Below are positions 2 to 31,324 of a stretch of DNA of 38,515 bases, piece after piece. Within the stretch, counting starts at the first letter, position 1; each line of letters starts with the position of its first letter. The notes beneath the pieces are model-generated. The model was not told where the DNA came from. It worked only from the letters and a program-made list of their open reading frames with translations, and did no database searches. The DNA comes from Candidatus Omnitrophota bacterium (GTDB lineage Bacteria > Omnitrophota > Gorgyraeia > Tantalellales > Tantalellaceae): positions 1 to 38,515 of the forward strand of contig JAHJBY010000060.1 of the NCBI GenBank assembly GCA_018813285.1, written 5' to 3'. A program made the translations under genes and the position numbers.

Positions 2-3000
2 TTCAAACTTATCGACACCGGTTCTTGTTTTATAGGAGCTGAAGGTACCCTTCCCGTTTTCGGCGGGTTCTGGCGGCGGGACAGCAGGGGAGGGTTGACC
101 ATCTATCTTACAAAAGGTTTCTATGACAAATATGTCCTGACATGGTTTGAGAAAGAGAAAAATCCGGAAGACAAAAATCTTCAGTTCAGGGGCACGGTGG
201 GAATGCAGTTTCTGATCGATGAATTATTGAGAGCAAGCGGAAAGTATGAGTATAAGGATGCCGGCCCTATTTTGACACGGCTTAACGGCATGTTCAAGGT
301 GACCAGAAGAAGCCCTGAGTCTATTCCGTATAACGATTTGGATCATCTTCCGAACGAATACGTCGCGCTTCTTTTGGAAGTGACCGGACTTATTGAAGAT
401 GGTAACGAAACGGCCCTTGACTGGCTTATCCGGCGCCTTTCTTTCCACGATAATGATCCTTATAACCATTTTTACAAGGCTGTTTTGATTGCTCTCGGCA
501 TGATACGAAGTGATGAGGCCGCTGTTATGTCGAAGATAAAACAGGGTTTTCTCGATGAGCTTCGCGATTTAAAAACTATTTTAAAAGACAAGAATCACCC
601 CGCCAGCGGCGATGCGATTTGGGCTTTGGACGCGATCGGATGGGAACTCGTGAAAATTTACCCGGAACTTGTGAGATGGGAGATAATCCCCGCGTTAATA
701 GACGCCATGCGGGATAAAACCGATCTGATCTCCAGAAAAGCAGTCGAAAGCGTAGGGTCGATCGGCGCGGTGCTGGCACGGTCAGAAGAATATTCGAAGT
801 TCGTGAAGGGGCGGATAGTCCCGGCGTTGTTTGTCGCCCTGAAAGACGGGACCACCGCGGTTCGCGGGAGAGCAGTTTCTGCTATAAGCAATATCAGCAC
901 GAATTTAGTAAAAGAAAACGGGGAATTTGTGTTTAAAGTGGTCGTTCCCGTCTTGAACGATATTTCAAAAGATAGAAACCACCCGGCCAGCAATGATATA
1001 CCGGATGTTTTAATGGATATTGGTATGGTTCTGGCGAGAAAATACCTGGAGTTTGATAAGAAGGAAATTGCCCCTGTTTTTGTAACCTTCTTGAAAAAAG
1101 GAAAGCTCGGAGTTCGTTTGCCGTCCGCCTGGGTTTTAGGCGAGATCGGCAGAGACCTGGTTGTGGAAGGGGATGTAAGCTTTGTGAAAGAAAAAATAAT
1201 TCCTTATTTGATAGCCGCTCTGAAAGATGAGTCCGCCGGGGTACGGGCAAACGCGGCCGATGCGCTGGGTGAAATCGGAAAGGCGCTGGCGGCAAAAGAA
1301 GATTGGAAATTTGTAAAGGAAAGTGTAACTTGCGCGTTAATGGCTGCCTTGAAAGACGAGGAATACCCGGCCTGTGAGAAAGGGGCTGTGGCTCTTGGTA
1401 AGATCGGCAGGGTATTAAAGAGTGAACATCCGGAATATGTGAAGGAAGAAGTGATTCCCGTGTTGTTGAACGCCCTAAAAAGTAAAAATCTAAGGGTCCG
1501 CGCGGATGCGGCCCAGGGACTGCTTACGATAGGAGATGCAGAAGAGTTGAAAAAAGCTCTGCCCGCCGGGTATGAGACTATACTGAACACTTATGTTTTT
1601 ATATTCAAAGGTGAGGTAACGGTAAAAGACGGTGAGCTGGAAAAATGTGAGCTGCGCGAGATTATAAAATCAACGGAACACGCGACCCGGGTGCTATTGA
1701 CTATTTTGGAAACGGAAGATCCTTTTTTTCGCGATGATACGGTTCAAGCCTTACTTGACGAAGGTGACGGGGAAGAGCTGGAGAAAGTTTTGGGAGTCAA
1801 TTATAGGAAAATATTGGAAGGATATAAAGCGGTAAGAAGAGCGGATATTGAAGATGTTGTGGAAACGGGCAGGTATGTCATTCCCGCCGTGATAAACGAT
1901 ATAATGAAGGAGATTTTCTGGTTTGATGGCAGCGCGGCGTATTCTTTAAGCGGCCGGCTGCAGAAAGGAACGGGTCCTGATGAAGTGAAATCAGGATTAG
2001 ACAGGGGAGGATCTCTTGAAGGGGTTCTATCCGAATTTTTATACGGTCCCGCTTCTTTGGTCACACTGAAAACAGCGGGGAGAGAGATAAAACTGCTTCG
2101 GACGGATGAAGAAAAGATCGAGGAAGTTATGGAAAACCGGGAGCTGGATCCGGAACATGGATTAATCCAAAGAGTTTTACTGGCGTCTCCCTCCGTTAAA
2201 CATAATATCGCCGTTTTACGGAACATTTCCCGTGAATATCCCGATTTGTTCGATTTTTTGACAGAATACCCATTGTATTTTGACGCGGTAAGATGGTTAA
2301 CGGCAGGTGAATTAGAAAGATTGAACAATGAAAATGTGATAAATAAGGCCGTGATAACCGCGGTGTTAAGAGAGAAGATTAAATCGAGTACGGAGATTTC
2401 GGGACTCGGTGAGACGGGGGTGGAAGGAATCGACGGGGAAACGATCTGGAGGCTGTACATGGGGGAGAACAACCCCGAGGCGCTGGAAGAGAGGGCAAAA
2501 CAGGAGGCGGTAAAGGGGCTGTTGTTCAGCAGGGTTTTCTCGGAATGGATAAAGGATGTACGGTTGAAAAAGATCCTGGTCAAAAAAGTGTTAACGCGTC
2601 TGGATGACGGGGATTTAGGGTTCAGCGGCCTTTCTCTTGCCGCGAAAAAGAAAAAAGCGACCGGAATAGTCAATCAATTCGTCTCCGGGCATGAGATCGA
2701 GGATTTCCAGGAGGTCACCGCGGTCTACCGGGCGTTGCTTTTTGAAAAAGGAATATTTGACAGGAAAAAGAGTTTGCTGGAACTGTGTTTCGCGGAGGCA
2801 GGCGATGTTCTGGGAGAAATTGAATGGGAAGAAGATATGATGTTCTGGCATGTTGGCCCTGAAGGGACTTATGGCGACGCCAGGGACGCGATACAGGACT
2901 TTATAAATAAAAAATACGGCAAGGTTTTTGAATTACCTAATGTATGGGAAAGGTTAGAATACGAGGGAGGAGTCTGGTCTTATCGGGTATTGATAGATGG

Positions 3001-6000
3001 CAGGCCCAGGACGTTCATGTTTTTGGGTAGGGGCGGGGACGTGAATATTTTACTTGAGAGGCTTGTCTACAGGTCAGTGGAACTGGCAGTGATGAAAAAG
3101 TGCGGCCTTTATCGGGATTCTATGGAAACATTGGGCCTGCCGGAGAAAGGTGGGAAGCCGACTACGGACGGGTTCATCGAACGCCAGCTTCGCTATGCCG
3201 CGGAGAAGGGGATACTGGGTGATGACGCGGATATTTCTCTGCTGGAACGGGGCGCGAAAAAATCCTTGGCCTATCTTGTAAGTAAGGGACTTGCGCGGTA
3301 TTTGCAGAGCCGGGTGCTTTCGCGGCTGGGTTTCGGTTTCTCGGACGCTCAACGGTTCCTGCGGGAGACAACCGAGAACCGTATTTCGCCCAAATTGAAC
3401 GCCTTATCCAGCCGTCTTCTGGGCTACTGCCTGGTTAAAGAGGCGGCGCGGGAAGTGGAGAAAGGGGTTGCCGAAAAAGAAAAAGACGCCTATTCAATCC
3501 GGGAACAAAGAGACAAAGCGGCGGATCTTCTGGCACTGACGGGAGTCCTTGTACTGTTATTATTTCTGGTCGCACCGCGTGAAGCAATACCAATATCTTT
3601 TTCCGCGGTATTGACCGGCCTGCTGACGGGTTTCCGACTCTGGCAGGTATTCGCCTCGTACAGGAATATTAAGAGAATAGGGGCCGAAGTCCTGCCGCGA
3701 TTTGATGAAGGGTATACGGAGTATTTATCGGATACGGCGGAACTGTTGAACGAACGGGGCTATCCAAGTGTCGTGGATGAAATCGGGAAGAAGATCACGC
3801 TGAAGATCAGGGGGGTTCCGCCTATAACCGTTAAATTTCCCGATAAGAAAGAAACCGTGAAGCAGATGCTGAAAAAGAGGATGTTGGCGGTTTCGGAAAG
3901 CCGGATGAGGACGATCACACTTGTTCCCGGAATATCGCCGTATCTGTTTCCCTTTGTGCCTGTGGATGAACTAAATCATCTGTCCCTCCCGCCGGAGTAT
4001 TGTGGCGAGATCGGACAGATACCGTTTGTTTTGGGAAGAGCCGTCCGGAAAAGCAGAATAGCCGGACATATCCGGAAATTCATCCGGGATGAAAGAGGCA
4101 GACTCGGGAAACGTGCGGAAGGGGACGAGGAGCCTGAAACTTTAGAAAGCCCTGAAAATATCTCGAAGAGAACCGGTGGAAGCAAGAAGGATGCCGGTGT
4201 CATTGCGAGCAAAGCGACGCAATCTCAAAACGGAGAAGAAGGAGGGAGACAAAACTTAAATGGGATAACCGATAACGAAAAACAGGGGATAGAAGTGTTT
4301 TCTTTAGATTCAGGAAGACAGGTAGAAAAAAAGGGAGTTAACAAAGTCCAGATAGCCCGGAGTCCGGATACATTGCGGGATGGTGGTCTTTCCCAATGCG
4401 TAATTGTCCTGCTGTATGATTCAGAAGAGAAAACGGGCGCTTGCATGCATGTTGATTTAAGCCTTGAAAAATTTGCCGGGTTGGGTATTGATGCAATAGC
4501 AAATAAATATTTAGATTTCACCCTCCAGGGAATGGTCTTAAGAGGGGCAACAGCGGAGAATATTAGAGCTGTGATTGTATCCAATGAAGACTATCCGGGG
4601 AATGAAAGGAGTAATCAGCTTCGCGATTTTAACCGAGACGCGATGAAGAAGGAGCTACAGGACAGGGAGATCTATAACGGAGAATACAGAATAGAGAGCG
4701 AACATATTGGAGTATCTTTAGATTTAAGAGACGGTGGTATTTTTACAAGAACAATTAAGGGAGATAACGTCCATTTAGTTTCTTTTCCTTCTTCAATAAA
4801 TTGGCCGGAAACTGTTACCGCTTTGAGGGAAGCTAAGAAATGGTTCATAAAATACGATCCAAATCCTGATAATTGCGATGATCGCGCCATGGAAACGGCT
4901 GAGATCCTGGCCGCGCGTGGATTCAAAGCAAGGTATACCGTTCGTAAAGAGCCCAAATCGTCTTTAGGAGAAGATTTCCTCTTTTACGCGTATGCCGTGG
5001 TTGAGCGGGAAGGGAAAGAGTTCATAGTTGACATTTCAGCTGACGGAGCAGAGTTCGACGGGATCCGCGAACAATATGAGGACCAGGGCGTAGTTACTAT
5101 ACCGGTTGAGGATACTAAAAACGATCCTGAAGGTGGAAGATTCTGGATGTACACGACCGGTGAAATTGTTCAGGATAAAGTGATCAGTTCACCGGATATC
5201 TTCGGGCAAAGGGATGAGCTTCTTGAAGAAATAGTTGAGAGGTATGAGGAGACTGTAGATACGGAAGAAATCACCGCCGAGGAACAGACCGCACAGGCAC
5301 TTGGGATCACGGTCAAAGAAGTTCTTAGGATGTTGAAAAAACTGGGGAGAACATCAGCTCTCAAGCCGTACAGAGAACATTTTAAAAAATTGAAGGCAAG
5401 TCCATCCCCCATAGCGCAAAAGGAAACAGTTCGAGAAAACGGAGAGAATGCGCCCAGTAGTGTGATAGTACCGGATAAAATTAAGCTTGGTCGGATACGT
5501 TTTTCCAGGCGTAACAGTCCCGAACAGGGCCGGTTAGTGACGGAGCTTATGAATGAGGTAACGGAGGGATGGGGTAATGGGAATAGAGGCAAAAAATTTA
5601 CCGATGCCTGGCAAGAAATAGATGATGCTGTACTTGAAAGCGGAAAACGGGCCATAAAAGAGGAATCGGAGCGTATCCTTGAAAGCGCTAAAAAAATAAT
5701 ACCACGCCTTGTGAACGCGATGATCGGCGCGTCGAGATCAGGGAAAGACGAGAAAGTCGTTCTTGCCCTGGACCTCGGGCTCGGTGAAGGTGAGATAAAC
5801 AGGCTCATAAGGGAGCTGATCGATATGTTTCCTGCGCTTGAAAATAATAACGGGGACTTAAAAAGATTCTTCGGCAATCTCGAGATAATCAAGGGAGAGG
5901 GAGAGGCGCTTGCCGGCAGGGTAACCAATATCACAGATCCGAAAAAGGGATCCGTCAGGCCGGAAAACCTTATCGTGATAACGAAAAGTTCTAATGTGGA

Positions 6001-6331
6001 AAAAGGATATTTTAAGAATGTCGAGGGCCGTGCTGTTATCGCCGGTGTAGGTGACGCGGAATTTCCGGAGACGGCGTACCTGCCGCTCTTGGGGATAATG
6101 CTTTTCGCGGTTGGCAAGCATCTAAAGTGGGACAGGGATACGCTTCTTAAACATTATGAGATGATCCCGAACGCGCTTCCGGTAGGAGAATATACCGAAA
6201 AAGAACGCGGAAAACTGTTCGTTCAGGATGAAAAGACCCTTGTGATCAAGCTTATCCCTGACGCGGAAGAATTGAGTGATGACCTGGAAGAATTAATTGA
6301 GAACATCAAAATAGTCCTTTCCAAAGCGTAG
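2..6331 (+). CDS. Giant HEAT-repeat multidomain protein, 5'-truncated by window edge
   Basis: The frame is open from base 2, and the residues before the TTG at 95 look coding (for example LIDTGSCFIGAEGTLPVFGG). I therefore treat it as partial, with 2,109 residues visible, rather than starting at 95. Numbering from base 2: HEAT-type repeats of about 42 residues at roughly 185-520; a two-helix membrane hairpin at about 1173-1219; DELNH at about 1322-1326, which resembles a zincin HExxH with the first His replaced; a CheD-like segment with Cys1466 and His1483 in a SQCVIVLLYD...H context; and a transglutaminase-like segment starting NCDDRAMETAEIL (Cys1625) whose expected His position reads Tyr. 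The C-terminal 300 residues are an unrecognised alpha/beta domain. A palindromic-repeat fragment is translated in frame at 4199-4226. Only 6 bp separate it from the convergent XRE gene. The overall function is unknown; an envelope-anchored scaffold or enzyme is an inference. Confidence 0.85.
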   Translation, partial: FKLIDTGSCFIGAEGTLPVFGGFWRRDSRGGLTIYLTKGFYDKYVLTWFEKEKNPEDKNLQFRGTVGMQFLIDELLRASGKYEYKDAGPILTRLNGMFKVTRRSPESIPYNDLDHLPNEYVALLLEVTGLIEDGNETALDWLIRRLSFHDNDPYNHFYKAVLIALGMIRSDEAAVMSKIKQGFLDELRDLKTILKDKNHPASGDAIWALDAIGWELVKIYPELVRWEIIPALIDAMRDKTDLISRKAVESVGSIGAVLARSEEYSKFVKGRIVPALFVALKDGTTAVRGRAVSAISNISTNLVKENGEFVFKVVVPVLNDISKDRNHPASNDIPDVLMDIGMVLARKYLEFDKKEIAPVFVTFLKKGKLGVRLPSAWVLGEIGRDLVVEGDVSFVKEKIIPYLIAALKDESAGVRANAADALGEIGKALAAKEDWKFVKESVTCALMAALKDEEYPACEKGAVALGKIGRVLKSEHPEYVKEEVIPVLLNALKSKNLRVRADAAQGLLTIGDAEELKKALPAGYETILNTYVFIFKGEVTVKDGELEKCELREIIKSTEHATRVLLTILETEDPFFRDDTVQALLDEGDGEELEKVLGVNYRKILEGYKAVRRADIEDVVETGRYVIPAVINDIMKEIFWFDGSAAYSLSGRLQKGTGPDEVKSGLDRGGSLEGVLSEFLYGPASLVTLKTAGREIKLLRTDEEKIEEVMENRELDPEHGLIQRVLLASPSVKHNIAVLRNISREYPDLFDFLTEYPLYFDAVRWLTAGELERLNNENVINKAVITAVLREKIKSSTEISGLGETGVEGIDGETIWRLYMGENNPEALEERAKQEAVKGLLFSRVFSEWIKDVRLKKILVKKVLTRLDDGDLGFSGLSLAAKKKKATGIVNQFVSGHEIEDFQEVTAVYRALLFEKGIFDRKKSLLELCFAEAGDVLGEIEWEEDMMFWHVGPEGTYGDARDAIQDFINKKYGKVFELPNVWERLEYEGGVWSYRVLIDGRPRTFMFLGRGGDVNILLERLVYRSVELAVMKKCGLYRDSMETLGLPEKGGKPTTDGFIERQLRYAAEKGILGDDADISLLERGAKKSLAYLVSKGLARYLQSRVLSRLGFGFSDAQRFLRETTENRISPKLNALSSRLLGYCLVKEAAREVEKGVAEKEKDAYSIREQRDKAADLLALTGVLVLLLFLVAPREAIPISFSAVLTGLLTGFRLWQVFASYRNIKRIGAEVLPRFDEGYTEYLSDTAELLNERGYPSVVDEIGKKITLKIRGVPPITVKFPDKKETVKQMLKKRMLAVSESRMRTITLVPGISPYLFPFVPVDELNHLSLPPEYCGEIGQIPFVLGRAVRKSRIAGHIRKFIRDERGRLGKRAEGDEEPETLESPENISKRTGGSKKDAGVIASKATQSQNGEEGGRQNLNGITDNEKQGIEVFSLDSGRQVEKKGVNKVQIARSPDTLRDGGLSQCVIVLLYDSEEKTGACMHVDLSLEKFAGLGIDAIANKYLDFTLQGMVLRGATAENIRAVIVSNEDYPGNERSNQLRDFNRDAMKKELQDREIYNGEYRIESEHIGVSLDLRDGGIFTRTIKGDNVHLVSFPSSINWPETVTALREAKKWFIKYDPNPDNCDDRAMETAEILAARGFKARYTVRKEPKSSLGEDFLFYAYAVVEREGKEFIVDISADGAEFDGIREQYEDQGVVTIPVEDTKNDPEGGRFWMYTTGEIVQDKVISSPDIFGQRDELLEEIVERYEETVDTEEITAEEQTAQALGITVKEVLRMLKKLGRTSALKPYREHFKKLKASPSPIAQKETVRENGENAPSSVIVPDKIKLGRIRFSRRNSPEQGRLVTELMNEVTEGWGNGNRGKKFTDAWQEIDDAVLESGKRAIKEESERILESAKKIIPRLVNAMIGASRSGKDEKVVLALDLGLGEGEINRLIRELIDMFPALENNNGDLKRFFGNLEIIKGEGEALAGRVTNITDPKKGSVRPENLIVITKSSNVEKGYFKNVEGRAVIAGVGDAEFPETAYLPLLGIMLFAVGKHLKWDRDTLLKHYEMIPNALPVGEYTEKERGKLFVQDEKTLVIKLIPDAEELSDDLEELIENIKIVLSKA
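4199..4226 (+). repeat. In-frame fragment of palindromic repeat inside giant gene
   Basis: The stretch from gtcattgcgag to gcaatctc matches the left arm of the palindromic element at 15644-15679, with an 8-base difference in length. It is read as VIASKATQS within a low-complexity linker before the CheD-like segment, so the repeat has been absorbed into coding sequence without breaking the frame. Confidence 0.65.
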
Positions 6332-9075: not shown

Positions 9076-9441
9076 ATGACAGAAAATGATTTTTGGTATT
9101 ACCTGCACGCGGAAAGGGACAAGGGCGTGGCAAAAGTGATGGCCGGCGGCATCAAGCTTGGAAATGATCCTGGTGATGCAAGTGTCGACTACATGACCGG
9201 ACACTCACTTCTGCCTGAAAACTATGATAACATCTCACAGGAGCGAATTATTGAAATAGGGAAACTCTTGTTCCAAGCAGACATAAAAACCAAGACAAAA
9301 GAGGCAATATTGATATTGTTGGCGCATCAACCAACAAGGGACGCGTTGTTTTTCGTTTCAGAATATAATAAACAACCGGATGAAAGATTAAAAACATTCG
9401 CCATGTTAGCTTTGGATGAATGCCTTATGTGGAATGAATAA
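9076..9441 (+). CDS. Small HEAT-like helical protein, unknown function
   Basis: The product is 121 residues. The N-terminal part is MTENDFWYYLHAERDKGVAKVMAGG. The C-terminal half looks like two or three HEAT-type helices (ERIIEIGKLLF; TKEAILILLAHQPTRDALFFVSEY; RLKTFAMLALDECLM). The start is secured by a strong aaggaggagg ribosome binding site 3-4 bases before the ATG. No signal peptide is visible. It stands alone between two palindromic repeats. A protein-binding role is inferred; no specific family recognised. Confidence 0.75.
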   Translation: MTENDFWYYLHAERDKGVAKVMAGGIKLGNDPGDASVDYMTGHSLLPENYDNISQERIIEIGKLLFQADIKTKTKEAILILLAHQPTRDALFFVSEYNKQPDERLKTFAMLALDECLMWNE

Positions 9442-9717: not shown

Positions 9718-11427
9718 ATGAAAATTAAAACCTTGATTATGGCGGTCGTAGCCGTTTGTGTCATAATCCCGGTTGGATATTTCGCGTACCTGATTTTTCT
9801 GAATGGGTCGTCTTTCGCCCATAACGGAGATGTAAGCGTATGTAAGGCGGAAACCGGTAAATGGGAAACACTCGATGACAAATATACTCTAAAAAAAGGC
9901 GACAAATTAAAAACAGGCAAGGGAGCCAGTTGCAGTATTCTTCTTGGAAATACAGCTGCCGTTATGGTTATGGCTGATGAAAATACTGAAGTTGCGATAA
10001 CGTCCAAGGATCCGGTGGAACTCGATCTCATAGACGGAAAACTCCTCGCGAATCTTACAAGGCATACTCGACTGAAAAAATTCACCGTCACAACACCTGT
10101 AGGAGCCTGCGGCATCAGGGGAACCGGGTGGCAAGTCACGACGGATAAAGATTCAAAAACTACGGTGGAAGTGTTCGACGGCCGGGTCAAGTTCGGACAG
10201 ACAGAAATGCTTTACGAGCATGACCCCTATACCGTCCCGAATGATTTCGAACTTGATGTAACAAAAGATGAGACCACCCGGTTTGTCCGCAAAAAACTGG
10301 ATCCTGAGAAATATGCAAACTGGAATAAATGGGTTGGTAGATCATCTGAAGAACTGACAAAGATCAAAGTGATAAACTACATGGTCCAAAGCGAACCCGA
10401 TCCGTATCCCACGTGGCAGGAGGGCGTGTCCTACACGTCATGGCTACCCGGGAAATATTCGGGGCTTGAATCCGGTATATCTATTCCTGAAATGGCAAAG
10501 GAAACAAATGCGTCCTGGGTCAATCTGGTCACCACGTGGTACCAGGGCGACTCCCATTCGACTAAAATATACCGCCGACATGATAAAACCCCTACTGACA
10601 CAAGTTTGACTTCTGCCATACAGAAAATGCAGCGCTTGGGCATGCATATTATGCTGAGTCCGCATCTCAACCTTGAAACTTACTCTACGGGCACTTGGAG
10701 AGGGGAGATAGGGTTTACCGACAATGAGAATTGGGATGCATGGTTCGAAAGTTACTCGGCGTTTGTCCTGCATTACGCGCAAATGGCCGAAGACCTCGGT
10801 TTAGAAATATTCAACATCGGCACCGAGCTCTCCATGACAACCACCCAGCGGCCGGATAAATGGATCGGCCTCATCGCCAGGATAAGAGAGGTTTACTCGG
10901 GAAGGCTTGTTTACACAGCCAACTGGTTCGAGGAATATGAGAATATCCGTTTCTGGGGACATCTCGACTACGCGGGTATATCGGCGTATTTCCCGCTGTC
11001 AAGAAAAGATAAACCATCATATTTCGAGATTAAAAATGGCTGGAAACCGTGGCTTGAAAAAATCGAGGCGTGGCAAAAAACTCACGGCAAACCTGTGATC
11101 TTTCCGGAGATCGGATACAGAAGCGCCGCGGGAAGCGCGAAAATACCCTGGGCTCATAGATCAATGAGTGAAATAGACCTCCGGCAGCAATATAACTGCT
11201 ATAAAGCCACCTTCGAAACTTTTTGGGGAAAGCCTTGGTTCTACGGGTTTTACTGGTGGACCTGGAGAACAAATCCCCGCATCGGCGGCAAATATAACCG
11301 TGGATTCACCCCTCATGAAAAACCCGCCGGGAGCCTTATTAAGACGTGGTATCTAAAACCGGATCCTCACAAATACAAAAGCATTTTGGAACTGGCAAAA
11401 GATAAGGTTAAAAGCTCGATAAAATAG
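9718..11427 (+). CDS. Membrane-anchored FecR-domain / GH113-like glycoside hydrolase
   Basis: The product is 569 residues, with a strong ggaggga site before the ATG. Residues 5-29 are an uncleaved signal anchor. Residues 35-200 are a FecR-type domain (DKLKTGKGASCSILLG; TPVGACGIRGTGWQV; VEVFDGRVKFG). Residues 215-555 match the GH113 TIM-barrel pattern known from beta-mannanases: EGVSYTSWLPGKYSG, LVTTWYQGD, MLSPHLNLE, WRGEIGF, then the acid/base candidate Glu370 in NIGTELS and the nucleophile candidate Glu464 in FPEIGYRS. The tail carries FYWWTW. The predicted location is periplasmic or outer side of the inner membrane. Likely substrate: a mannan-type or other beta-linked polysaccharide. The fusion suggests a hydrolase tethered through a ligand- or polysaccharide-binding FecR module. 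Confidence 0.88.
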   Translation: MKIKTLIMAVVAVCVIIPVGYFAYLIFLNGSSFAHNGDVSVCKAETGKWETLDDKYTLKKGDKLKTGKGASCSILLGNTAAVMVMADENTEVAITSKDPVELDLIDGKLLANLTRHTRLKKFTVTTPVGACGIRGTGWQVTTDKDSKTTVEVFDGRVKFGQTEMLYEHDPYTVPNDFELDVTKDETTRFVRKKLDPEKYANWNKWVGRSSEELTKIKVINYMVQSEPDPYPTWQEGVSYTSWLPGKYSGLESGISIPEMAKETNASWVNLVTTWYQGDSHSTKIYRRHDKTPTDTSLTSAIQKMQRLGMHIMLSPHLNLETYSTGTWRGEIGFTDNENWDAWFESYSAFVLHYAQMAEDLGLEIFNIGTELSMTTTQRPDKWIGLIARIREVYSGRLVYTANWFEEYENIRFWGHLDYAGISAYFPLSRKDKPSYFEIKNGWKPWLEKIEAWQKTHGKPVIFPEIGYRSAAGSAKIPWAHRSMSEIDLRQQYNCYKATFETFWGKPWFYGFYWWTWRTNPRIGGKYNRGFTPHEKPAGSLIKTWYLKPDPHKYKSILELAKDKVKSSIK

Positions 11428-11579
11428 ATGGGAAACAGATGGAAATAGGAAAGCTCGCCGGATGAACTGTTCCAATGGCTGGCAAAGAACGATTGGCCTG
11501 GGAAAAAGGCATGGGATATGGCCTCAGAACACACTACCGCACGCGCGTTATTGGTAAAATACAGCTCACAAAAATAACC

Positions 11580-12383
11580 ATGAAGAGCTATATCAGGATA
11601 CCTATAGTTTTTTTCGCGCTGGCACTCATCATGCTGCCGGCAATAATAGGCGGGGCAGGGGGCTCACCGCGCAACTTATCAAGGGAAATAGCGGAATATT
11701 CCAGGGGCAAAAACATCGTCTGCCTTAAGTTGAAAAATAAAGGAGAAATAAACGGCGTGATCACCAATTACACCGCCTGTGGGTTAACATTGGACATCGG
11801 GTTCGGAACAACAGTTATCGCGAACAGTGATATCGAAAAGATCACGCCACAAAAAGACTCAAAAAAGCGAAAAAAACATATTGACCCCAGAAGCGCGGAA
11901 AAAAAGGAAAACCAAAAGAAAAGAGAGACGGAAGATGTTTTTAAGCGCATAGAAGCCGCCGAAAGGATCAAACAGGAATCCCTTAAAAAACAGAACATGA
12001 TAACTGACATACGGTTCGAGGATAAATCCAGGATCCAGGTTAACGCGCTTTTAAACGATACTGTCAGCATCCGGTTAATTGTGGACACAGGCGCTAACGT
12101 GGTATCTATACCACCGCATGCCGCAAGAAAATTGGGAATACAACTAAGCCGAAAAAACGCGGTATCTGTTAAGCTGGCGGATGGAAGCATGGGACAGGCC
12201 ATACCGGTGACACTAAAATCCCTGAAAGTCGGAAATGCCGAGGCCCTGAACGTCAAAGCCGTTGTCGCGATCGGCGAACAAGGCAAACCCCAAACAGTCG
12301 GCTTGCTCGGCATGTCGTTCCTTAATGGATTCCACGTTAAGCTGGATACCGATAAAAACATCCTTACGCTCATCAAGAAATAA
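11580..12383 (+). CDS. Membrane-anchored retropepsin-like aspartic protease
   Basis: The product is 267 residues from the ATG at 11580. That start places a signal anchor at the N-terminus (SYIRIPIVFFALALIMLPAII); the frame is open back to 11475, but that part is polar and unlike a signal. No clear ribosome binding site is seen. Residues 40-95 form a small beta-rich domain, followed by a highly charged coiled-coil linker (about 95-140). The protease domain has the active-site motif LIVDTGANVVSIP with Asp169 and ends with GLLGMSFLNGFHVKLD, as in TIGR02281-type clan AA proteases, which act as dimers. It lies 150 bp after the GH113 gene and 23 bp before a small membrane protein. The substrate is unknown. 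Confidence 0.88.
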   Translation: MKSYIRIPIVFFALALIMLPAIIGGAGGSPRNLSREIAEYSRGKNIVCLKLKNKGEINGVITNYTACGLTLDIGFGTTVIANSDIEKITPQKDSKKRKKHIDPRSAEKKENQKKRETEDVFKRIEAAERIKQESLKKQNMITDIRFEDKSRIQVNALLNDTVSIRLIVDTGANVVSIPPHAARKLGIQLSRKNAVSVKLADGSMGQAIPVTLKSLKVGNAEALNVKAVVAIGEQGKPQTVGLLGMSFLNGFHVKLDTDKNILTLIKK

Positions 12384-12814: not shown

Positions 12815-13090
12815 ATGGAGAACAAATGCAGCTTTGAGTGGGATCCGGAAAAAGAGAGGATCAATATTTACAAGCACGGCATAGATTTTGTAACAGCCGC
12901 TGAAGTTTTCAAAGATCCGCGAAGGAAATTAATAATTGATTCAGAGCATAGCAGAACGGAAGAACGGTTATTTTGCATAGGTAAAGTTGGAGGCAAAATA
13001 TTAACCGTAAGATTTACCTGTCGCGGACAAAAAATCCGGATCATAGGAGCCGGTTGCTGGAGAAAAGGAGCATCACATTATGAAAAATAA
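12815..13090 (+). CDS. brnT: BrnT-family toxin (RNase), module 1
   Basis: The 91-residue protein has the BrnT (DUF497) signature: CSFEWDPEKERINIYKHGIDF at the start, VFKDPRRKLIIDSEHSRTEERLFCIGKVGGKILTV in the middle and RIIGAGCWRKG at the end. Family knowledge: BrnT is a RelE-fold ribonuclease neutralised by BrnA. A gaggt site lies 9 bases before the ATG. A TTGACA (12782-12787) with 17-bp spacing to TAAACT is a possible promoter but would put the start site almost on the ATG. The gene overlaps the antitoxin gene by 11 bp. It is the first module of the toxin-antitoxin island. Confidence 0.93.
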   Translation: MENKCSFEWDPEKERINIYKHGIDFVTAAEVFKDPRRKLIIDSEHSRTEERLFCIGKVGGKILTVRFTCRGQKIRIIGAGCWRKGASHYEK

Positions 13091-15961: not shown

Positions 15962-16390
15962 TTATTTTGCGCGATCACTGATATATCCGGCGATCTGCGA
16001 ACAGAATTCCATAAAATCCCCCATATGCAAGTTCAAGTTGTCGAACAACTGTCCATGGTCGGTCTCTAAATAATCGTGAGCCAGGATATTTCTTAAACCG
16101 GCAAGAAGCTTAACTTTCATCATTAAGGTATCATCTATAATTGAATTTTGAGCTAACACTTCAAATATTTCACCGTAATTCTCGGGCTTTTTTAACGATT
16201 CACTCGCGATTATATGCGACCCGATATCTATCATCGATTGGACAATTATTTCGACAAGCCTTTCCGCCTTCAGGAAAAGATCCGGATCTCCCGCAAATTT
16301 CCCCCTATCAACTTCTTTTATAAAACTCAAAAGTTCCGTCGCTTCCTTGATCCTTGAGATTCGCGTGGCGATTATATTTTTATCGACCAT
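15962..16390 (-). CDS. hepT: HepT-family RNase toxin (DUF86)
   Basis: The 142-residue helical protein has the HepT active-site motif R-x4-H-x-Y: Arg100, His105, Tyr107 in RNILAHDYL. Its partner is a MntA-type nucleotidyltransferase encoded immediately upstream, with an 11-bp overlap. Known biology: HepT is a HEPN RNase, and MntA blocks it by adding AMP to the tyrosine of this motif. All three key residues are intact. Confidence 0.95.
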   Translation of the reverse strand: MVDKNIIATRISRIKEATELLSFIKEVDRGKFAGDPDLFLKAERLVEIIVQSMIDIGSHIIASESLKKPENYGEIFEVLAQNSIIDDTLMMKVKLLAGLRNILAHDYLETDHGQLFDNLNLHMGDFMEFCSQIAGYISDRAK

Positions 16391-16823
16391 TAACTATCCC
16401 CCTCATTTTAATATTTTCCAGCAAAGACCCCGCGTATTCTTCACGCATAAATTTTGTTTCAAAATATTCCTGCATTATCCGCGATTCAAATTTATAGCGT
16501 TCAGACGGCTGTATATCGCGAATAACGATGCCATTTTTTATTATATTAAAATTTAACTCAGCAGACCTGGACTCATTTAATAGAACAATATCCACCCTGT
16601 TACAATCAAATATTTTCGAAAATTCATTGATAAGGGCGAGTTTTATCTCCAAATACGCGGAACACGTGATCTTGTGGTCCAAAAAGATCGCTATATCCAC
16701 GTCACTCAAGGCCCCGGGCTGCCCAATAGCCCGCGATCCAAAAAGGTAGCCAAAAATCACGTTATATTGACAAAGTGATTTTTTGATACGCGATTTAAAT
16801 TTTTCCATACTGAATGTTTTCAT
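16380..16823 (-). CDS. mntA: MntA-type nucleotidyltransferase antitoxin
   Basis: The 147-residue protein is a minimal nucleotidyltransferase: GSRAIGQPGALSDVDIAIF with Gly29-Ser30 and catalytic Asp41/Asp43, and a third acidic position in RVDIVLLN. I start at the ATG at 16823, which has aaggga 6 bases upstream; the frame is open 21 codons further, into the promoter. It precedes and overlaps hepT. Confidence 0.94.
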   Translation of the reverse strand: MKTFSMEKFKSRIKKSLCQYNVIFGYLFGSRAIGQPGALSDVDIAIFLDHKITCSAYLEIKLALINEFSKIFDCNRVDIVLLNESRSAELNFNIIKNGIVIRDIQPSERYKFESRIMQEYFETKFMREEYAGSLLENIKMRGIVNGR

Positions 16824-16848
16824 ACGTTTTCCCTTGTTGACCATTCTT

Positions 16849-16877
16849 AATATATCACACCCTTTCATAAATAACAA
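16849..16877 (-). promoter_or_regulatory. Promoter of mntA-hepT
   Basis: On the minus strand TTGTTA (16877-16872), 17-bp spacer, TATATT (16854-16849), about 25 bases before the mntA ATG. Confidence 0.55.
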
Positions 16878-16939
16878 ATTACGCACGTTCTGGGGAACGT
16901 CGGACTAAAAACGGATCGGACGTTGGGCAATTCTAGCCT

Positions 16940-16985
16940 TCAGGGGATGGAATCCAACGATTGGATCTTGTCTGAAGTTTTTAAG
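16940..16985 (+). terminator. Possible terminator-like hairpin between modules
   Basis: Nested stems cttcag/ctgaag and atccaa/ttggat are followed by ttttt on the plus strand. The neighbouring genes run on the minus strand, so its use is uncertain. Confidence 0.3.
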
Positions 16986-17005
16986 AGGTCTATATGTTTT
17001 TTGTA

Positions 17006-17809
17006 CTATTTTTTTCTATATTTTTCTATCAACAATGGAATGATTTCATGCGCGTTTACGAGCATGTTTGCTTCACTTTCTTCGAACAAAAAAGGCCTTA
17101 ATGTCTCGGCTTGTTTCGATAATTCTTCTTTGGTAAGATCTTTTACCCTATCGGAGATCATCTCCAGTGGATCTTTGTTTAGACCAAGGTTTTTTAGAAC
17201 ATCTCCACTAATGGGATATTTATTTGAAAGCATGAACATAATATCATATAAATGCCGTCCACGCGTCTTTTTGTTCAATGCATCTATCTTATTCGCAAAC
17301 AAAGTACCTTTTTCAGTACAAATGCACGGATAAAATTCACCAAATCCGGAAATTACCTGGGTTTCCGTTTTTATTTTCCATTCAGTCTTATTCAGTTCAA
17401 CTTTTATAATGATCCCTTCTTTTTTTGAATATTTCGATACCACATTGTAAGTTTTTTCTACCTCAGGAAAAAGCAAATTTGACACATACAGATTTTCCCG
17501 GTAAGAAAACTCAATCTGCGTTTCAAGCCCGATCCTTTTTAATTCTACTTTTATTTCTTTTTGAAGCTTTTCAAATTCTTTTCGAGTAATATTTTTTACA
17601 TCGAAATCTAAATCCTCAGAAAACCTTTTAAGACCGCAAACTAATCTCAGGTATGTCCCTCCTGTAAAATAAAATCTCTTTCCCTCTTCATTTTTATAAA
17701 GTCCTTTCAGAATAAGCACCTGAAGATATTCCCTTAAAATACCTCGAGTTTTCGCGGGAGGCATCCCTCCGATCTTTGCCTGCTCGACCAGTGAATCATA
17801 TGTAAGCAT
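17006..17809 (-). CDS. AbiEii-family nucleotidyltransferase toxin
   Basis: The 267-residue protein has the AbiEii/DUF1814 signature: YFTGGTYLRLV (Gly50-Gly51-Thr52) followed by KRFSEDLDFDV (Ser64, Asp66, Asp68), then a long alpha/beta body with VELNKTEW and FANKIDALNKKTRGRHLYDIMFML. Known members are type IV toxins that use nucleotides to block growth and act in phage abortive infection. It overlaps the AbiEi gene by 14 bp. Confidence 0.95.
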   Translation of the reverse strand: MLTYDSLVEQAKIGGMPPAKTRGILREYLQVLILKGLYKNEEGKRFYFTGGTYLRLVCGLKRFSEDLDFDVKNITRKEFEKLQKEIKVELKRIGLETQIEFSYRENLYVSNLLFPEVEKTYNVVSKYSKKEGIIIKVELNKTEWKIKTETQVISGFGEFYPCICTEKGTLFANKIDALNKKTRGRHLYDIMFMLSNKYPISGDVLKNLGLNKDPLEMISDRVKDLTKEELSKQAETLRPFLFEESEANMLVNAHEIIPLLIEKYRKK

Positions 17810-18404
17810 AAAACTCCTTTAAATCAAGATTATACAATTTGGCGTATTTATTTATCACGTTTTTTTTGAACCCTAAAATTACATCTCTATCCAGTCGCTC
17901 TTTCCTGAGATCAAATTTACTATTTCGGTATTTCTTGAAGTATAAATAATCAACAAGCGCCTTTTCAGGCTCCGCGATAAGAATATCATAAACACCATGT
18001 TTCTCTACGTAATACCCCTTAAAAACATTTGTATTAACTGTTCGATACGTGAAAAGACCGTGATCATTTTTAAACCTTCGTGTGGGCTTTGTCGTAATAG
18101 AAGTAACCGCCATTGCAACTTCAGGAATTACGTTATAACCGGATAGAGCCGTTTCCAACGAAACATAGGAAGGACTGTACAGCTTGTTAGCAACATATAC
18201 GTCCGGAATATTGAGGTTAACAGGATATGTAAGCTCATACAGCCCTCTTTTAAGAGCATAAATCCACCCTTTCTTACTCCATCTATAAATCATTTTTCTC
18301 AGATTAAGTTTTTTTTCTTTCGGAAAAAATGACAGTAAGTCATTGTAAGTAAAGATGTGAAATTTATGCCGTACTAATGTTCTGTAAACATCCTTGAACT
18401 TCAT
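17796..18404 (-). CDS. AbiEi-family antitoxin / transcriptional repressor
   Basis: The 202-residue protein has an N-terminal winged helix (FTYNDLLSFFPKEKKLNLRKMIYRWSKKGWIYALKRGLYEL) and the AbiEi C-terminal domain (SPSYVSLETALSGYNVIPE; ILIAEPEKALVDYLYF). AbiEi represses its own operon rather than binding the toxin tightly. An inverted repeat directly before the ATG and a good promoter fit that role. Confidence 0.94.
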   Translation of the reverse strand: MKFKDVYRTLVRHKFHIFTYNDLLSFFPKEKKLNLRKMIYRWSKKGWIYALKRGLYELTYPVNLNIPDVYVANKLYSPSYVSLETALSGYNVIPEVAMAVTSITTKPTRRFKNDHGLFTYRTVNTNVFKGYYVEKHGVYDILIAEPEKALVDYLYFKKYRNSKFDLRKERLDRDVILGFKKNVINKYAKLYNLDLKEFYAYI

Positions 18405-18594: not shown

Positions 18595-21500
18595 TTATGC
18601 CGCGGAAAGGACACGCCAGGCTTCTCTTAGGGCTTCCTCTAGACGCTGTATCATCTCCCGCGGAGATAACGCGCGCGGCAGGATTATGTTTATGGTGGAT
18701 TTTTCACCGTTGCGGATACTCCCCAACCAGTTGTTGAGTATCTTCGAAAGAGAAAAAACACTTTCTCTTGAATCCGGCCCGACCGGGATCCGTATCGAAA
18801 TATTACCCCGAAGTTCGCTCTTTAATTTATTGCGCAGTTCTTCAGCCTCTTCTTTATCACGGACAGCATCCGTCGCTATGGCCATATATTCCCCGGCCGG
18901 CAATTCCTGCGTGCCAAGACCCTGAAGATATAAATCTCGTATCATCCATGCTTTTGTTTGAGGGTTGATCTCATTCATCTTAAATGTACGTGCCATCTCC
19001 TGAATCTCTCGTTCAGTTATCATCATTATTTCAATATTCTCCGGCAAACCAAGCGCCTTTTTGACATCAAGCTTACCAAGACTTTGGATCAGTCCCCTGT
19101 CTTCCTCCTTAACGTCCGTAACCACAAGCGTAAAGGGAACATCCTTTCCCAATCTGCTCAGCCTGTTCAGCGCGAGAGTGACGTCCGGCGCGTTTTTGAA
19201 AACCTCGACAGGCACGCAAAAGTGCAGCGCGGATACCCCCCGCGTCCTGCGGCAGGCCCGGCTGAGGTTGCTGACGGCAGAGATCAATCCGCTCCCTCTT
19301 ATTTTTTTATCAAGCGCGCCGAAAGCCTGCTGAATCCCGACCTCGCTTGTCTCATGAAGGACGGATTTGATCTCGTTTTTTTGGGATTTATATACTGCCC
19401 CAATCAAAGGATCGTACTGGTAAGTCTTCCGATAAAAAGGAGCCATACTAAAGTTGTCAATATTTATCGAGTTCTGTTTTACCAGTCTAATACCCAATTT
19501 TTGTTCAAGCTTTTTAATTATTCGATTATCTATCCATTCCAAATTGCTTCCTAATCCTTTCGGCACGCTATAAAAAAATCTTCCTCCATCAGGACATAAA
19601 TACTTTAAAATTGAGCTAATAAATGGCATTAGCTGGCCTTCTATGATTCTATCTTCTGGCATGAATGCCCAAAATGCATCCTTTTCATCCACTACTCCCA
19701 AGGCCGCTACATAATCAAAACGTTTAGACTGCAATTTTTCATAAGTACCATACACATCAATCTCCTGTTCCAATACAAATCTTTTATGCAGGTTCACCAA
19801 GTATTTCAATGTCGTTCCATCAATATCAATCACACTCACATCAAGTCCCAATTTCGCGAGCAAAATTGGAAAATAGTCTAAAGAACCTGGCCCCACCACA
19901 AGCGCGCTCTTGCCACGCACCAGCCCCATACCCATGACCTTCCGCGCGATTTCGTGTTTTATCTCATCATCAAATATAACATCACCCTCGACCTTGTTTA
20001 TCTCGTCGATAATATTCACGATTTCTTCGCGGGTAATGGGGGCAAGCTGTTGAATATTTTCCCTGATAGCCTCTGCCTCTTCCTCATTCAAACTCGCCTT
20101 CTTCAACTCCGGTTTTTCGTCTAGGATCTCTTCTTTTAGTATGGACAGTATCTCCTGAAAATAAAAAGGTTTCTCTACTATGGCGACAATATTTTTGTTC
20201 TTGTACCGTTTCTTTGACATAATAGTCGCTTCGCTGCTGGTTATGACAAATTTTGTTTCGGAATTTTTCGCGGTTATTTTTTTCAGTATTTTGCTTAAGT
20301 TGTGTTTACCTTCCACGATGTCATCGGTTACGACCAGGACGGGGTTGTTTGAGACAAGTTCTCTTTCCAATTTCCAGATCGAGTCTATCACGACTATCGG
20401 CATATCACCCAGTTCTTCCTTGATAACCCCGGCTAACTCGCCGGCTTCTGAGAATGAGTTGTTGATGATGAAGATGGAACCTGACTTTTCTTCTGCCGCG
20501 GCCTGTTCCCGGGTTTGATACCGCGCCAAAACTTTCTCATAAACTTCGATTTGTTTTCGCCTCTCTTCCCTCACGATCCGGGCGGCATTTTCGTAAAGTT
20601 CTCTAATCTCCATTGTTTTGACATTTTTATACCTCTTTTTGATGTTCGCGAACAGGTTGTCATAACCGCTAAAAGCGTATAGAGAAATGTCCCGGTTCCC
20701 GGATCCGGCTTTCCCGGCGGCGAGGTCCAATATCGTAAATATACCTTTTTCTTCTATTTGCGCGTCTTTCTCAAAAGGAAGATTGCAATCGACAAACAGG
20801 ACATCAACCCGTTTTTTCTGTAAATACTCGATCGCGTCCTTAACGTACACGCAATGCTTGATATTTCCCGCTTTAGTGGCTGTTCCGAACTTGTCCAAAA
20901 GGTAATCAGCAACGTCTAAATTGTCCACCACCAACAGCACTTTGATCTCTTCCGGCGGCAACGGTTTTTCTTTTAACCCATTTTCCCGAGCGGCTCGCCA
21001 TTTCGAAAGGGCTTTTTCGTATTCCTCGATTTGTCTTTGTCGATACTTTTGGATTCGAGATATCAGTTCCTCAACACTATCCCCTGTTTTTTCAAATATA
21101 TCTATTTTTTTGAGAATTTTTTGGTCGTATCTCTCGTGTATGTTTTCCTTTATCCGATAGTCGGGCATGCCTGATATTGCCAACATCCGCGGGATATCTC
21201 TAAGTTTATCGTCAAAAAGGCGACAAATCGCAGGCGTTTCAGATTCTTTAAGCGGCACTGTCACGTCGAAGACAAGGCAATAAATGTCTTCCTTATCCAA
21301 CATGTCTACGGCTTCGGTATGAGTTTCGGCGCCAAAAAAAGCATATTCTTCCGGTGAAAATCTTGATTCTGAAAGGTCCTTGAGTGCCCGGTCATCATCA
21401 AAAAATAATACCCTGAGTTTTTCCGGCTCCTCCGGCGGTAATCCTGCCCCTTCTCGTTCTTCCTGCTTTTTAAGCCATTTTTTAATGCCTGGCCTTTTAA

Positions 21501-24500
21501 TAAGCTTGTCATATCTTTCCGCTATACGCTTTACAGCGAGGTTTATTTTTTTGTTCCTCCCGCGTTTTTTTCGTACTCTATCTTTTTTCCCCTCAATGTA
21601 TCGCGCCAGATCTCCCTGACGCAAACTCTTTTCAAAACCGAGTATACGGGAAACAATGTCTCCCGCCGCTTTTACCCCCGGCGCTGCCCATTCTTCGGGT
21701 AATATCGGTAAACCGGCTGTATTTTTCAACTTCCGAATAAAGAGATCGATGTAGGTTTCCCATTTCTCCGGGCCAAATTTTTCTTTCAGGTCCAGCAAGT
21801 ACTCTTCAACCGGGATAAAGGCGTTCAATCCGGCGGGCGGCGCTTCCGCTTTACCTTCGAGCCAGTCATCAAAGAGTTTGTCGTCAGCAAAGATTAAGAA
21901 AAAACTCTCATCCATACAATCAATAACCCCGGAAACGGCGATTTTTTCAAACGATCTGTCAAAAGTGACGAGAAGCGTGCTGCGGAATGCCGCGTCGTCC
22001 ATGTCCAGTAATTTTTCCTTGAACGATAAGATGAATTTTTTATCGAAGAATTTTCCCATGTTCTCACGGAACACCGCAAGCAAGGCTTCCTCTAAACAAG
22101 AGATCCTTTTTTTGCTTCGCTGAGTTTCATCAATGAGGAATTCAGCGTTCAATCCGTCAGAAAAGTAGGTTAATTGTTCACTCGCGCGCCATATTCCGGG
22201 ATAACCTATGACAGGCCAAAAATCCAACTCCGCCAGGCCTTCTCTGAGTTTGGGACCGCTGCAGTAGCTGAACTCGCCCCTGTAGATCCCTTCAATGATA
22301 AGATCCACGTTATGCGCGTTTCTTGAGCCAAAATAAGGATCTACCAGAACGCGCGCTTTTTGAGCGCGCCCTGCCCGTAAATACGCGCCACTTGCCGCGT
22401 CAGGTTGAACGCGTATATATTCCTGGTCAAACTTTTTCTCAAATGACAATATTTCTTCGTTTGTCACAGTACCGCTGACCAAGATGACACTGCCGGTAAA
22501 ACCCTCAGGCCCTGTCTGCCCTATCGTAACATTGGTCGAGGCAAGCAGTTTTTTATCCTTAAGCTTTTCGGCTTTTTTGACAAGTTTCTTACTGAAATCT
22601 CCGGTATCCGGCCGGACCTGTATGATATAAAGTTTCCCATCCAGGAAACCGAACTCTATATCCAGCGGCGTGCCTATCTCCTTTTCCAGCTTGGCGGCGA
22701 CTCTATAAACCTCTCTGGCTTCTTCTTCCTTTAGAGGAGGGCAGTGTCGTGAAGACGCTTTATCAGCCTCCGGCGCGGCGGGGTACAATTCGTTCCAGAG
22801 CCCGAGCATCTCCTCCGGGTTTTCTGACCGGCAATATCTTTTTCCCTTATAGACAAACTCGTACGGCATCTCAAGAAACGCGGTATCATACCGAAAATCT
22901 TCCGGATTCTCTCTGTCAAATGTATAACTCGCGGTGTTGGCGTAATTGCCCCGCACGGCACTACTCGCGTCTCCGCAAACCGCTTCGATCACAAGATGAT
23001 TATGGAAATTCGATCTTATCGTTCCTGACTTTTGAAAATGTAGGAATGGCTGGATCACTACGCCAAAACCTTCCCCAGCGTCCAGAAGGTTCGGGATTCC
23101 CTCAACTCTTTTCTCGCTATTCTGTGCGATCCAGATCGTCTCTACCGCCTGATCAAAAATCTCCCGCACCGCGCACGGGACAAGCCGCCTGTCTTTTTTC
23201 TTCGGTGAGATAAATATTCCGGCAAGTTTCCTGATAAAAGAATCCTCCCATTTCCCGCTTGAACGGCTAATAATGGGGTCCTTCAGGCCGGTTGTACGTT
23301 CGTTTATCAATGAATTCAGTTTTTCGGGAAAAGTGAATCTCTGTATCAGTTCTTCCAGCCGGTCCAATGTTTGCCGGCTTACGGCCCCTTTTATTCGCGT
23401 ATCTTTTCGTACGAGACGATTTCCTTTACTGACCAATTTATGATTCGCCTTTATAAATTCACCCCATACTTCTTGTATAGTGATATACCGTGACGGAGGA
23501 ATGAAAAACTCTATTTTTTCCGCCAGTTTTTCAATTATCCGTGACCATGAACCCTTGCCGCCGAAAACTCCCGCGTTATCTTCAAAAATTTCGCGTATAT
23601 TCTCCCCTTCCTTTCGCGGTTTCCTGACACTCTTCTCGCCCTTCTTTGCTCTCTTCCCGCTCAGAACCTTCTGCGTTATTTCGTGTTTTATCTCATCATC
23701 AAATACTGTCTCCCCTTCAACCTCGTTTATCTCGCCAACAATCGCCTCGATCTCATCCTGGGTTATTTCTGGAGGTCTTTTAGCCCGGATCATATCGGCG
23801 GGGATGAGTTTTTCACGTCTTTCGCGGAAATATTCGACAACCCTTCTCTGGACAAGCATCGCCGCGACGGGGTTGACGATATTGTCGTTTACTCCGGCGC
23901 TACCCGCGTGGTCGATATCCGGCATACTCTCGACTTTATCCTGCGGAACCGCGATAAGCCGGCCGTCCTCCTGCCGTTCTATCGCGCCATAATGCCCATG
24001 AAAATGGGGCAGTAGCTGCAATGCCGCCGCCAGGACAATATTTGATGTCACATCCCTGCCCAACGTCTTGAACCAGTATTCTGCCACAGATGATGTCCTG
24101 GGGAACATCCCCTGTATATTATCCATATCAACATTAAGTGACATCAATTCTTTCCCGAAATAAAAAATTTCATTACCCGGCAGAAGAGGCTTACTCATCC
24201 CGACAAGTCTTACATTAATATTCGGCATTCTGTCACTTTTGCGCAGATTATATAGAATCTTTTGCAAAAGCTTGCCGACAGACCCCTTAAAACCGGTATC
24301 CAGAAACAGGATATTCTCCTGTCCGTCAAAGGTGTCCTGTGTTATGCCAAAACCTTCCAAGAACTCCCTCTGCAAACTTTCTTCTCCCGGCAATTTTTCA
24401 ATAAACTCTCGGCTTCCCGGAAATAAGATGACTTTTTCCTCATAAAGTGTGCCGGCCAATAGCGGCCTCAAAGCGTCATAAAATATCTCCGCATCACGTC

Positions 24501-30406: not shown

Positions 30407-31324
30407 TTAAAATCTTATTTTAAAGCCGCCAATGACCCGGCTTTCGTTGCCGGTACGGCTTAACGCCAAAAAAAGCTCAGCGTCGTTCTTGAACTTCTTT
30501 GTGATGTCCAGCTCCACGCCGAGCGTCTCCCCTTTATTTGACGTAAGCGAAAGCTTTACTTTGTCGCCGGTGCCGATAAGTTTTTCTGCCCCAAATTCTA
30601 TCCGACCCCGGCGTCCGCCGGAATACGCGATGGAAAAGGTGACTTTCAAACCCTTTTTTATGTCCCACCCGCCGTAAAGGGTCACGACTTTTTTAACGCC
30701 GCGTCTAACCTTTTTTTGTAAAAAGTGTGTGCCGACCTTAAACTTAATGACCCTGTCGAGAACGGACAATTTGCCGGATAGAAATTCGGCTTTGAACACA
30801 AAGAATGAGTTGAAGGAACGCTCAAGCCTGTATACCAGGCGATTCTTCCCGATATTCCATTGACCCCGAAAAACCACTATATGTTCTTCGCGGATCTTCG
30901 TTTTGAGGGATGTTTTGACATATTTGTATGTCAATTCATTGTTCCGGTTCACCAGCCAGGCGCCGTCAAAGGTCAGGGTGTCATAGCGGCCCCGGGCTTT
31001 CGCGACATTGAACGTTATCCGGTTGTTCCTGTCCGCCTGCCAACGTCCGCGGAGGGTGATACTGCCTGTCCGGACACCCGGAATACTCTCGTGGTCCCTT
31101 ACCCTGAAACGCAGCGCGTTGCCACGAGCATTTTCTATCTCCCCGTAAAAAATCAGCGTCCTGCCGGCAATATCCGGGTCATCTGAATATGTGACATGAA
31201 ATTTGAGGTCATGTTCCGGGGTCAAAGACCAGGTGCCGTCTGAAGTAACCCGGCGGCCGGACTTGCCCTCTCCGTTTACAATGAGCCTGTTCCTGAGGTC
31301 TGTTTTTATCCGGCTTTTATACAT
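30407..31324 (-). CDS. Repetitive all-beta protein of unknown function
   Basis: The product is 305 residues without a signal peptide. It is built from about seven units of 40-45 residues with a G-x-W or G-x-A turn followed by paired strands (GRWQADRNNRITFNVA; GAWLVNRNNELTYKYV; GQWNIGKNRLVYRL; GGWDIKKGLKVTFSIA), ending in ALSRTGNESRVIGGFKIRF. The alternating pattern suggests a long beta sheet, solenoid or barrel. The final Phe would suit an outer-membrane barrel, but no export signal is seen. It lies 4 bp after trmH. Confidence 0.75.
   Translation of the reverse strand: MYKSRIKTDLRNRLIVNGEGKSGRRVTSDGTWSLTPEHDLKFHVTYSDDPDIAGRTLIFYGEIENARGNALRFRVRDHESIPGVRTGSITLRGRWQADRNNRITFNVAKARGRYDTLTFDGAWLVNRNNELTYKYVKTSLKTKIREEHIVVFRGQWNIGKNRLVYRLERSFNSFFVFKAEFLSGKLSVLDRVIKFKVGTHFLQKKVRRGVKKVVTLYGGWDIKKGLKVTFSIAYSGGRRGRIEFGAEKLIGTGDKVKLSLTSNKGETLGVELDITKKFKNDAELFLALSRTGNESRVIGGFKIRF

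Follow-up and report, generated by a model that had tools for sequence, protein, structure and literature searches.

The window, a stretch of 38,515 nucleotides from a genome of Candidatus Omnitrophota, carries a gene (9718–11427, + strand) whose product is probably a membrane-tethered periplasmic hydrolase of family GH113 acting on beta-mannan or manno-oligosaccharides, mounted on a FecR docking module and possibly coupled to CHASE2 sensing. This assignment is based on the sequence and on an AlphaFold2 (AF2) model. The gene is a single unbroken ORF with an ATG start that codes for 569 aa plus stop (ORF list and Pfam). Its product starts with a membrane helix (residues 2–27, 9721–9798; helical in AF2, with the hydropathy peak at 10–28), followed by a FecR-type beta module (residues 31–193, 9808–10296), a post-FecR helix with a WxxW motif (residues 196–215, 10303–10362; alignment A2 and AF2), a (beta/alpha)8 barrel (residues 234–545, 10417–11352) and a C-terminal helix (residues 552–568, 11371–11421; AF2, pLDDT about 71–76), all encoded on the + strand. 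Pfam identifies FecR (PF04773) at residues 62–158 (9901–10191, motif TPVGACGIRGTGW) (E 8.6e-11; 42.6 bits, cut-off 24) and GH113 (PF22612) at residues 245–532 (E 2.9e-67; 227.5 bits, cut-off 27). The earlier note had read an anchor, a FecR module and a GH113-type barrel in one chain at this position; Pfam, the PDB search and the AF2 model confirm the architecture and its coordinates.

The fold and the active site of the barrel are those of its family. The seven matches obtained in a PDB sequence search are all GH113 endo-beta-1,4-mannanases (best E 7.6e-38). In the AF2 model (mean pLDDT 92.7, pTM 0.83) the barrel has the GH-A (beta/alpha)8 fold of solved GH113 members and superimposes on 5yli over 301 residues (Z 42.4, rmsd 1.4). 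E370 (10825–10827), the predicted acid/base, and E464 (11107–11109), the predicted nucleophile, correspond in the sequence alignment to residues 151 and 231 of AaManA (4cd6), which we take to be the catalytic pair of that enzyme. Both positions are Glu in 36/36 rows of the GH113 alignment, so that the two catalytic glutamates named in the earlier note are indeed present, in a barrel whose profile is that of GH113. A separate model of the FecR module (pLDDT 87.5) matches the fold of anti-sigma periplasmic domains of FecR type (4m0h/4m0n, E 5.7e-7) and of the PupR signalling domain 6ovk (E 3.6e-6). Only the fold search found these matches; a sequence search of the PDB with the FecR part alone gave nothing better than E 0.3.

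This organization, a single N-terminal helix, a FecR-type beta module, the WxxW helix and a barrel with intact glutamates, would place the enzyme at the cell envelope. The cytoplasmic end of the helix is short and positively charged, with two K/R residues ahead of the hydropathy peak, and positive charge precedes the helix in 4/4 of the fusion N-termini that could be read. By the positive-inside rule the helix would therefore sit in the inner membrane as an anchor, and the remainder of the protein would lie in the periplasm. An outer membrane is likely, since Mla genes are found in the genome. The barrel would cut incoming mannan chains or oligosaccharides, a substrate suggested by the family, while the FecR module would hold or dock the enzyme to an envelope partner. 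That partner may be a CHASE2/outer-membrane sensor complex, because FecR modules of this type are often encoded beside CHASE2 sensors.

The fusion is rare and conserved in relatives. In surveys that scored up to three best candidates per genome, 50 of 384 genomes of the class had a GH113-type match (E 1e-40 or better) and five had the fusion: the window's genome (G000), G014, G002, G012 and G051. A draw of 384 genomes from the phylum returned the identical five, and the family survey found a match of E 1e-99 or better in 4/19 genomes (G000, G014, G002, G012). Three fusions are intact, one is split over two contigs and one is cut within the FecR module. The latter is that of G012, whose gene ends at the contig end, while the G051 gene begins on contig C9, the end of which overlaps contig C60 by 136 identical nt. 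Pfam assigns FecR plus GH113 to the G014, G002 and G051 proteins. The order of anchor, FecR, helix and barrel is kept in G014 and G002 (identity 49–50%) and the G051 protein has the same domain order as that of G000, its N-terminal hydrophobic helix being read from C9. A FecR module is found in 5/83 GH113 ORFs, a set taken from search-derived loci rather than at random and in which some ORFs touch a contig or locus end. A contig scan for the barrel gave nine loci, all with the barrel only and none with FecR. The window's genome itself codes for three further GH113 proteins and for other FecR proteins. According to the available part of a 2022 survey, the vast majority of GH113 proteins are single-domain, with one exception that carries CBM8 (PMC9032380), and a literature search for GH113 with FecR, or for a FecR domain fused to a glycoside hydrolase, found no report. 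The combination was rightly called unusual. Note that GH113 proteins of ~790 aa with ~465 residues ahead of the barrel are found in KSB1 and Caldithrix (L041, L042, L043).

Two separate fusion events are likely from the barrel phylogeny. The tree, built on 46 barrels, unites the four family fusions in a single clade (100/100) and joins the G051 fusion to an unfused GH113 protein of its own genome (100/95), a topology that favours two events. Two origins are likely rather than demonstrated, since forcing a single fusion clade on the barrel tree costs 10 log units and is not rejected (AU test, p 0.229). One origin is not rejected in the FecR tree either (p 0.387; long branches).

The FecR module of the fusion aligns with the stand-alone FecR proteins of the phylum (alignment A2), many of which, not all, share the WxxW helix. 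In this alignment the window's fusion has a FecR module and WxxW helix like those of the CHASE2-adjacent stand-alone proteins. Among 59 relatives there are 73 matches to CHASE2 at E 1e-10 or better and, at E 1e-4 or better, 112 to FecR. For 20 of the 73 CHASE2 matches a same-strand FecR match lies no more than 5 kb away, where random placement that disregards contig ends would predict 0.51. The CHASE2-adjacent FecRs are distributed by size as 17/54 (201–350 aa), 7/12 (200 aa or less) and 2/15 (431–530 aa); adjacency is 0/27 for other sizes and 0/4 for the fusions counted in this way. FecR proteins also occur in CHASE2 clusters of Campylobacterota (PMC9239204) and Burkholderia (PMC5192318), as described in the accessible portions of these papers. 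In G051 the fusion itself lies in such a setting: contig C9 carries, in order, genes for HATPase_c_2, STAS, MlaE, an ABC ATPase, MlaD and CHASE2-SpoIIE. The start of the fusion comes 19 nt past the CHASE2-SpoIIE gene once the split of the contig is taken into account. In G012, with genes named by eye, contig C39 ends with two stand-alone FecR genes that follow a MlaD-like gene, and contig C40, which presumably adjoins it, starts with an OMP-like gene, a CHASE2 gene and a phosphoglycerate mutase-like gene. The earlier proposal that glycan detection and cleavage are coupled at the envelope finds in the G051 gene order and in the wider pattern a suggestion that CHASE2 could provide the link.

A stronger version of this idea makes the fusion a catalytic co-receptor. 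Its FecR module would dock on the CHASE2-SpoIIE sensor phosphatase, joined in some genomes by an OMP barrel, and the binding or cutting of glycan by the GH113 barrel would alter the phosphatase and thereby RsbW/RsbV-like partner-switching and Mla output. The position of the G051 fusion in a partner-switching/Mla cluster, the G012 gene order (provided its two contigs adjoin), the 20 same-strand associations and the published clusters, as described in the accessible parts of those papers, are in its favour. However, the sole CHASE2 match of the window's genome is on contig C68, away from the fusion, in a cluster where the MlaD-like gene leads directly to CHASE2-SpoIIE with no FecR or OMP-like gene between them. 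The fusion lies off CHASE2 contigs in all four genomes of the window's clade, the single fusion-CHASE2 adjacency could be due to chance, and in Sinorhizobium meliloti, according to the accessible text, a FecR gene near a CHASE2 cyclase gene is dispensable for signal perception (PMC5498481). The co-receptor is possible, if rather unlikely. Similarly doubtful is an evolutionary extension of it, a sensor-enzyme that would have arisen when a FecR module, elsewhere in the phylum paired with CHASE2-SpoIIE phosphatases, gained a GH113 hydrolase, probably twice. A partner-switching pathway with Mla lipid transport genes in its cluster would then directly read the cutting of glycan at the membrane. The preferred reading, a tethered mannan or manno-oligosaccharide hydrolase, takes from the CHASE2 association a candidate docking partner.

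The fusion gene is followed 47 nt downstream by a gene for a retropepsin-like aspartic protease (11475–12383, + strand; PF13975/PF13650), membrane-anchored by eye, with which it is possibly co-transcribed and which is not found beside the fusion in other genomes. The neighbours named by Pfam between 6338 and 18404 code for HTH-cupin, response regulator, aspartic protease, BrnT, HepT, nucleotidyltransferase and AbiE proteins; none is a mannan uptake or breakdown gene. The fusion loci share no neighbours by blastp, with two exceptions: the gene downstream of the G051 fusion (L048, 3654–4715) has a homologue at 30407–31324 of the window, and the window ORF at 18595–25566 is matched by a large one adjacent to the G002 fusion. 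Promoter-like sites (7 against a shuffled mean of 6.5) and terminator-like sites (7 against 4.3, sd 1.8) are at or near background. The window also holds two very long ORFs of 2078 and 2323 aa (95–6331 and 18595–25566), the second with a 1202-aa counterpart that adjoins the G002 fusion and has a receiver-like start by eye. Further features are a toxin-antitoxin-like row at 15962–18404 (HepT-like and Polbeta nucleotidyltransferase, AbiEii/AbiEi pair), BrnT at 12815–13090 and a small protein at 9076–9441 with a sub-threshold Pfam match to the Acb2/Tad1 hairpin.

Elsewhere in the genome, contig C129 carries a mannan cluster (two GH113 genes, a GH130 mannooligosaccharide phosphorylase, a ROK regulator and ABC permeases) that makes use of beta-mannan by the organism plausible. 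The fusion gene lies outside this cluster. This location, and the suitability that tethering would have for trimming at the envelope, are consistent with an enzyme that processes or edits mannose-containing envelope or exopolysaccharide of the cell itself rather than acquiring food. Against such a role, no polysaccharide biosynthesis gene is present among the window ORFs scanned by Pfam, and self-glycan editing is considered quite unlikely. Tethering may be usual among the GH113 proteins of these bacteria, since 48 of the 74 unfused GH113 ORFs in which the N-terminus is present have fewer than 90 residues ahead of the barrel, and several of these begin by eye with a hydrophobic helix.

The FecR module appears to be of the kind found in the phylum's stand-alone FecR proteins and to be no anti-sigma regulator, judging from sequence comparison. 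The earlier note stated that FecR normally signals to sigma factors and asked for a sigma factor nearby; such a link is not borne out. Canonical FecR proteins have a cytoplasmic sigma-binding part, as stated in the accessible part of the source (PMC9249621). The fusion has about 4–9 residues ahead of its membrane helix, and Pfam finds no zf-HC2 or DUF4880 match in it. No match to sigma-70 region 2 (PF04542) is present on the fusion contig in four of the five fusion genomes; the window's contig (G000 C9) has none, and the matches of that genome are on C5, C17 and C128. In G051 the opposite strand of the fusion's contig does carry a pair of genes, for a sigma factor and for its own zf-HC2/FecR partner, about 2.9 kb from the fusion. 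The five fusion genomes together code for five FecR proteins (frames of about 440–500 aa) near a sigma-70 gene (G002 contigs C11, C29 and C37; G051 contigs C60 and C65), and the one scanned by Pfam has zf-HC2 at its start. These five anti-sigma-type FecRs group away from the rest in the weakly resolved FecR tree (89/94), though the data do not reject a tree that unites them with the fusions (p 0.372). A classical FecR-type regulator of an ECF sigma factor that would use the barrel as its sensor domain, although it can point to the anti-sigma fold of the module and to the G051 gene pair, is accordingly very improbable: it is opposed by the missing cytoplasmic anti-sigma domain, by four contigs without a sigma match and a fifth whose sigma factor is otherwise partnered, and by the separate branch of the anti-sigma-type FecRs, tempered by the joint grouping that is not rejected. 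Sigma-factor coupling was set aside on the combined evidence of domains, contigs and tree. An artefact of assembly or frame that joined two genes, for which the fragmentation of the genomes is the sole argument, has practically no chance of being correct and is refuted by the fusions in other genomes, those of G014 and G002 being 49–50% identical end to end, by the unbroken frame in the window and by the high confidence of the AF2 model.

Other FecR architectures were observed. The anchored FecR proteins L030, L032 and L033 end in a domain of ~165 aa, perhaps carbohydrate-binding; the two scanned (L030 and L033) have no further Pfam match in this domain, and a sequence search of the PDB with the L030-type domain gave nothing up to E 1. 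Big proteins with two FecR domains each are encoded on G014 C144 and G002 C5 (frames of 970 and 2868 aa).

With the fusion, the FecR proteins, mostly regarded as sigma regulators, gain a form that bears an enzyme, and GH113 gains a new modular architecture. The fusion indicates CHASE2, rather than sigma factors, as the likely partner of its FecR type, and raises for CHASE2-adjacent FecR proteins the testable question of whether FecR binds a ligand and passes it on.

Four systems come closest to the fusion. The Campylobacterota cAMP clusters, the Burkholderia LysM-FecR/CHASE2 kinase and CyaD1/SMc02177 of S. meliloti all have a FecR protein beside CHASE2. The G051 fusion resembles them in that it adjoins CHASE2 itself, whereas the window's fusion does not, and the accessible portions of these reports mention no FecR protein that includes an enzyme. 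FecR/PupR anti-sigma regulators share with the fusion the periplasmic FecR fold (4m0h, 6ovk); unlike them, the fusion lacks a cytoplasmic sigma-binding part and an adjacent sigma gene, and has by Pfam no receptor-facing C-terminal domain. A further architecture outside the published GH113 survey, as far as its available part goes (PMC9032380), occurs in the mannan cluster of C129, where the protein encoded at L049 5516–7231 combines an F5/8-type-C domain with a GH113 barrel; the domain was identified by Pfam in this protein, and other long GH113 proteins are alike by eye. Like the fusion, it has its barrel behind an N-terminal beta domain. It differs from the fusion in that it starts like a lipoprotein (by eye), has a discoidin-type domain, is encoded among the mannan genes of C129 and belongs to another clade of the barrel tree. 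The beta-mannanases of GH113 (AaManA 3civ/4cd6, 5ylh/5yli and BaMan113A 7dv7) have in common with the fusion the barrel fold and both glutamates, the similarity of the barrel being about 1e-37 (E) by sequence and Z 41–42 by structure. Almost all known members are single-domain proteins in the available part of the same survey (PMC9032380), while in the fusion an anchor and a FecR module precede the barrel.
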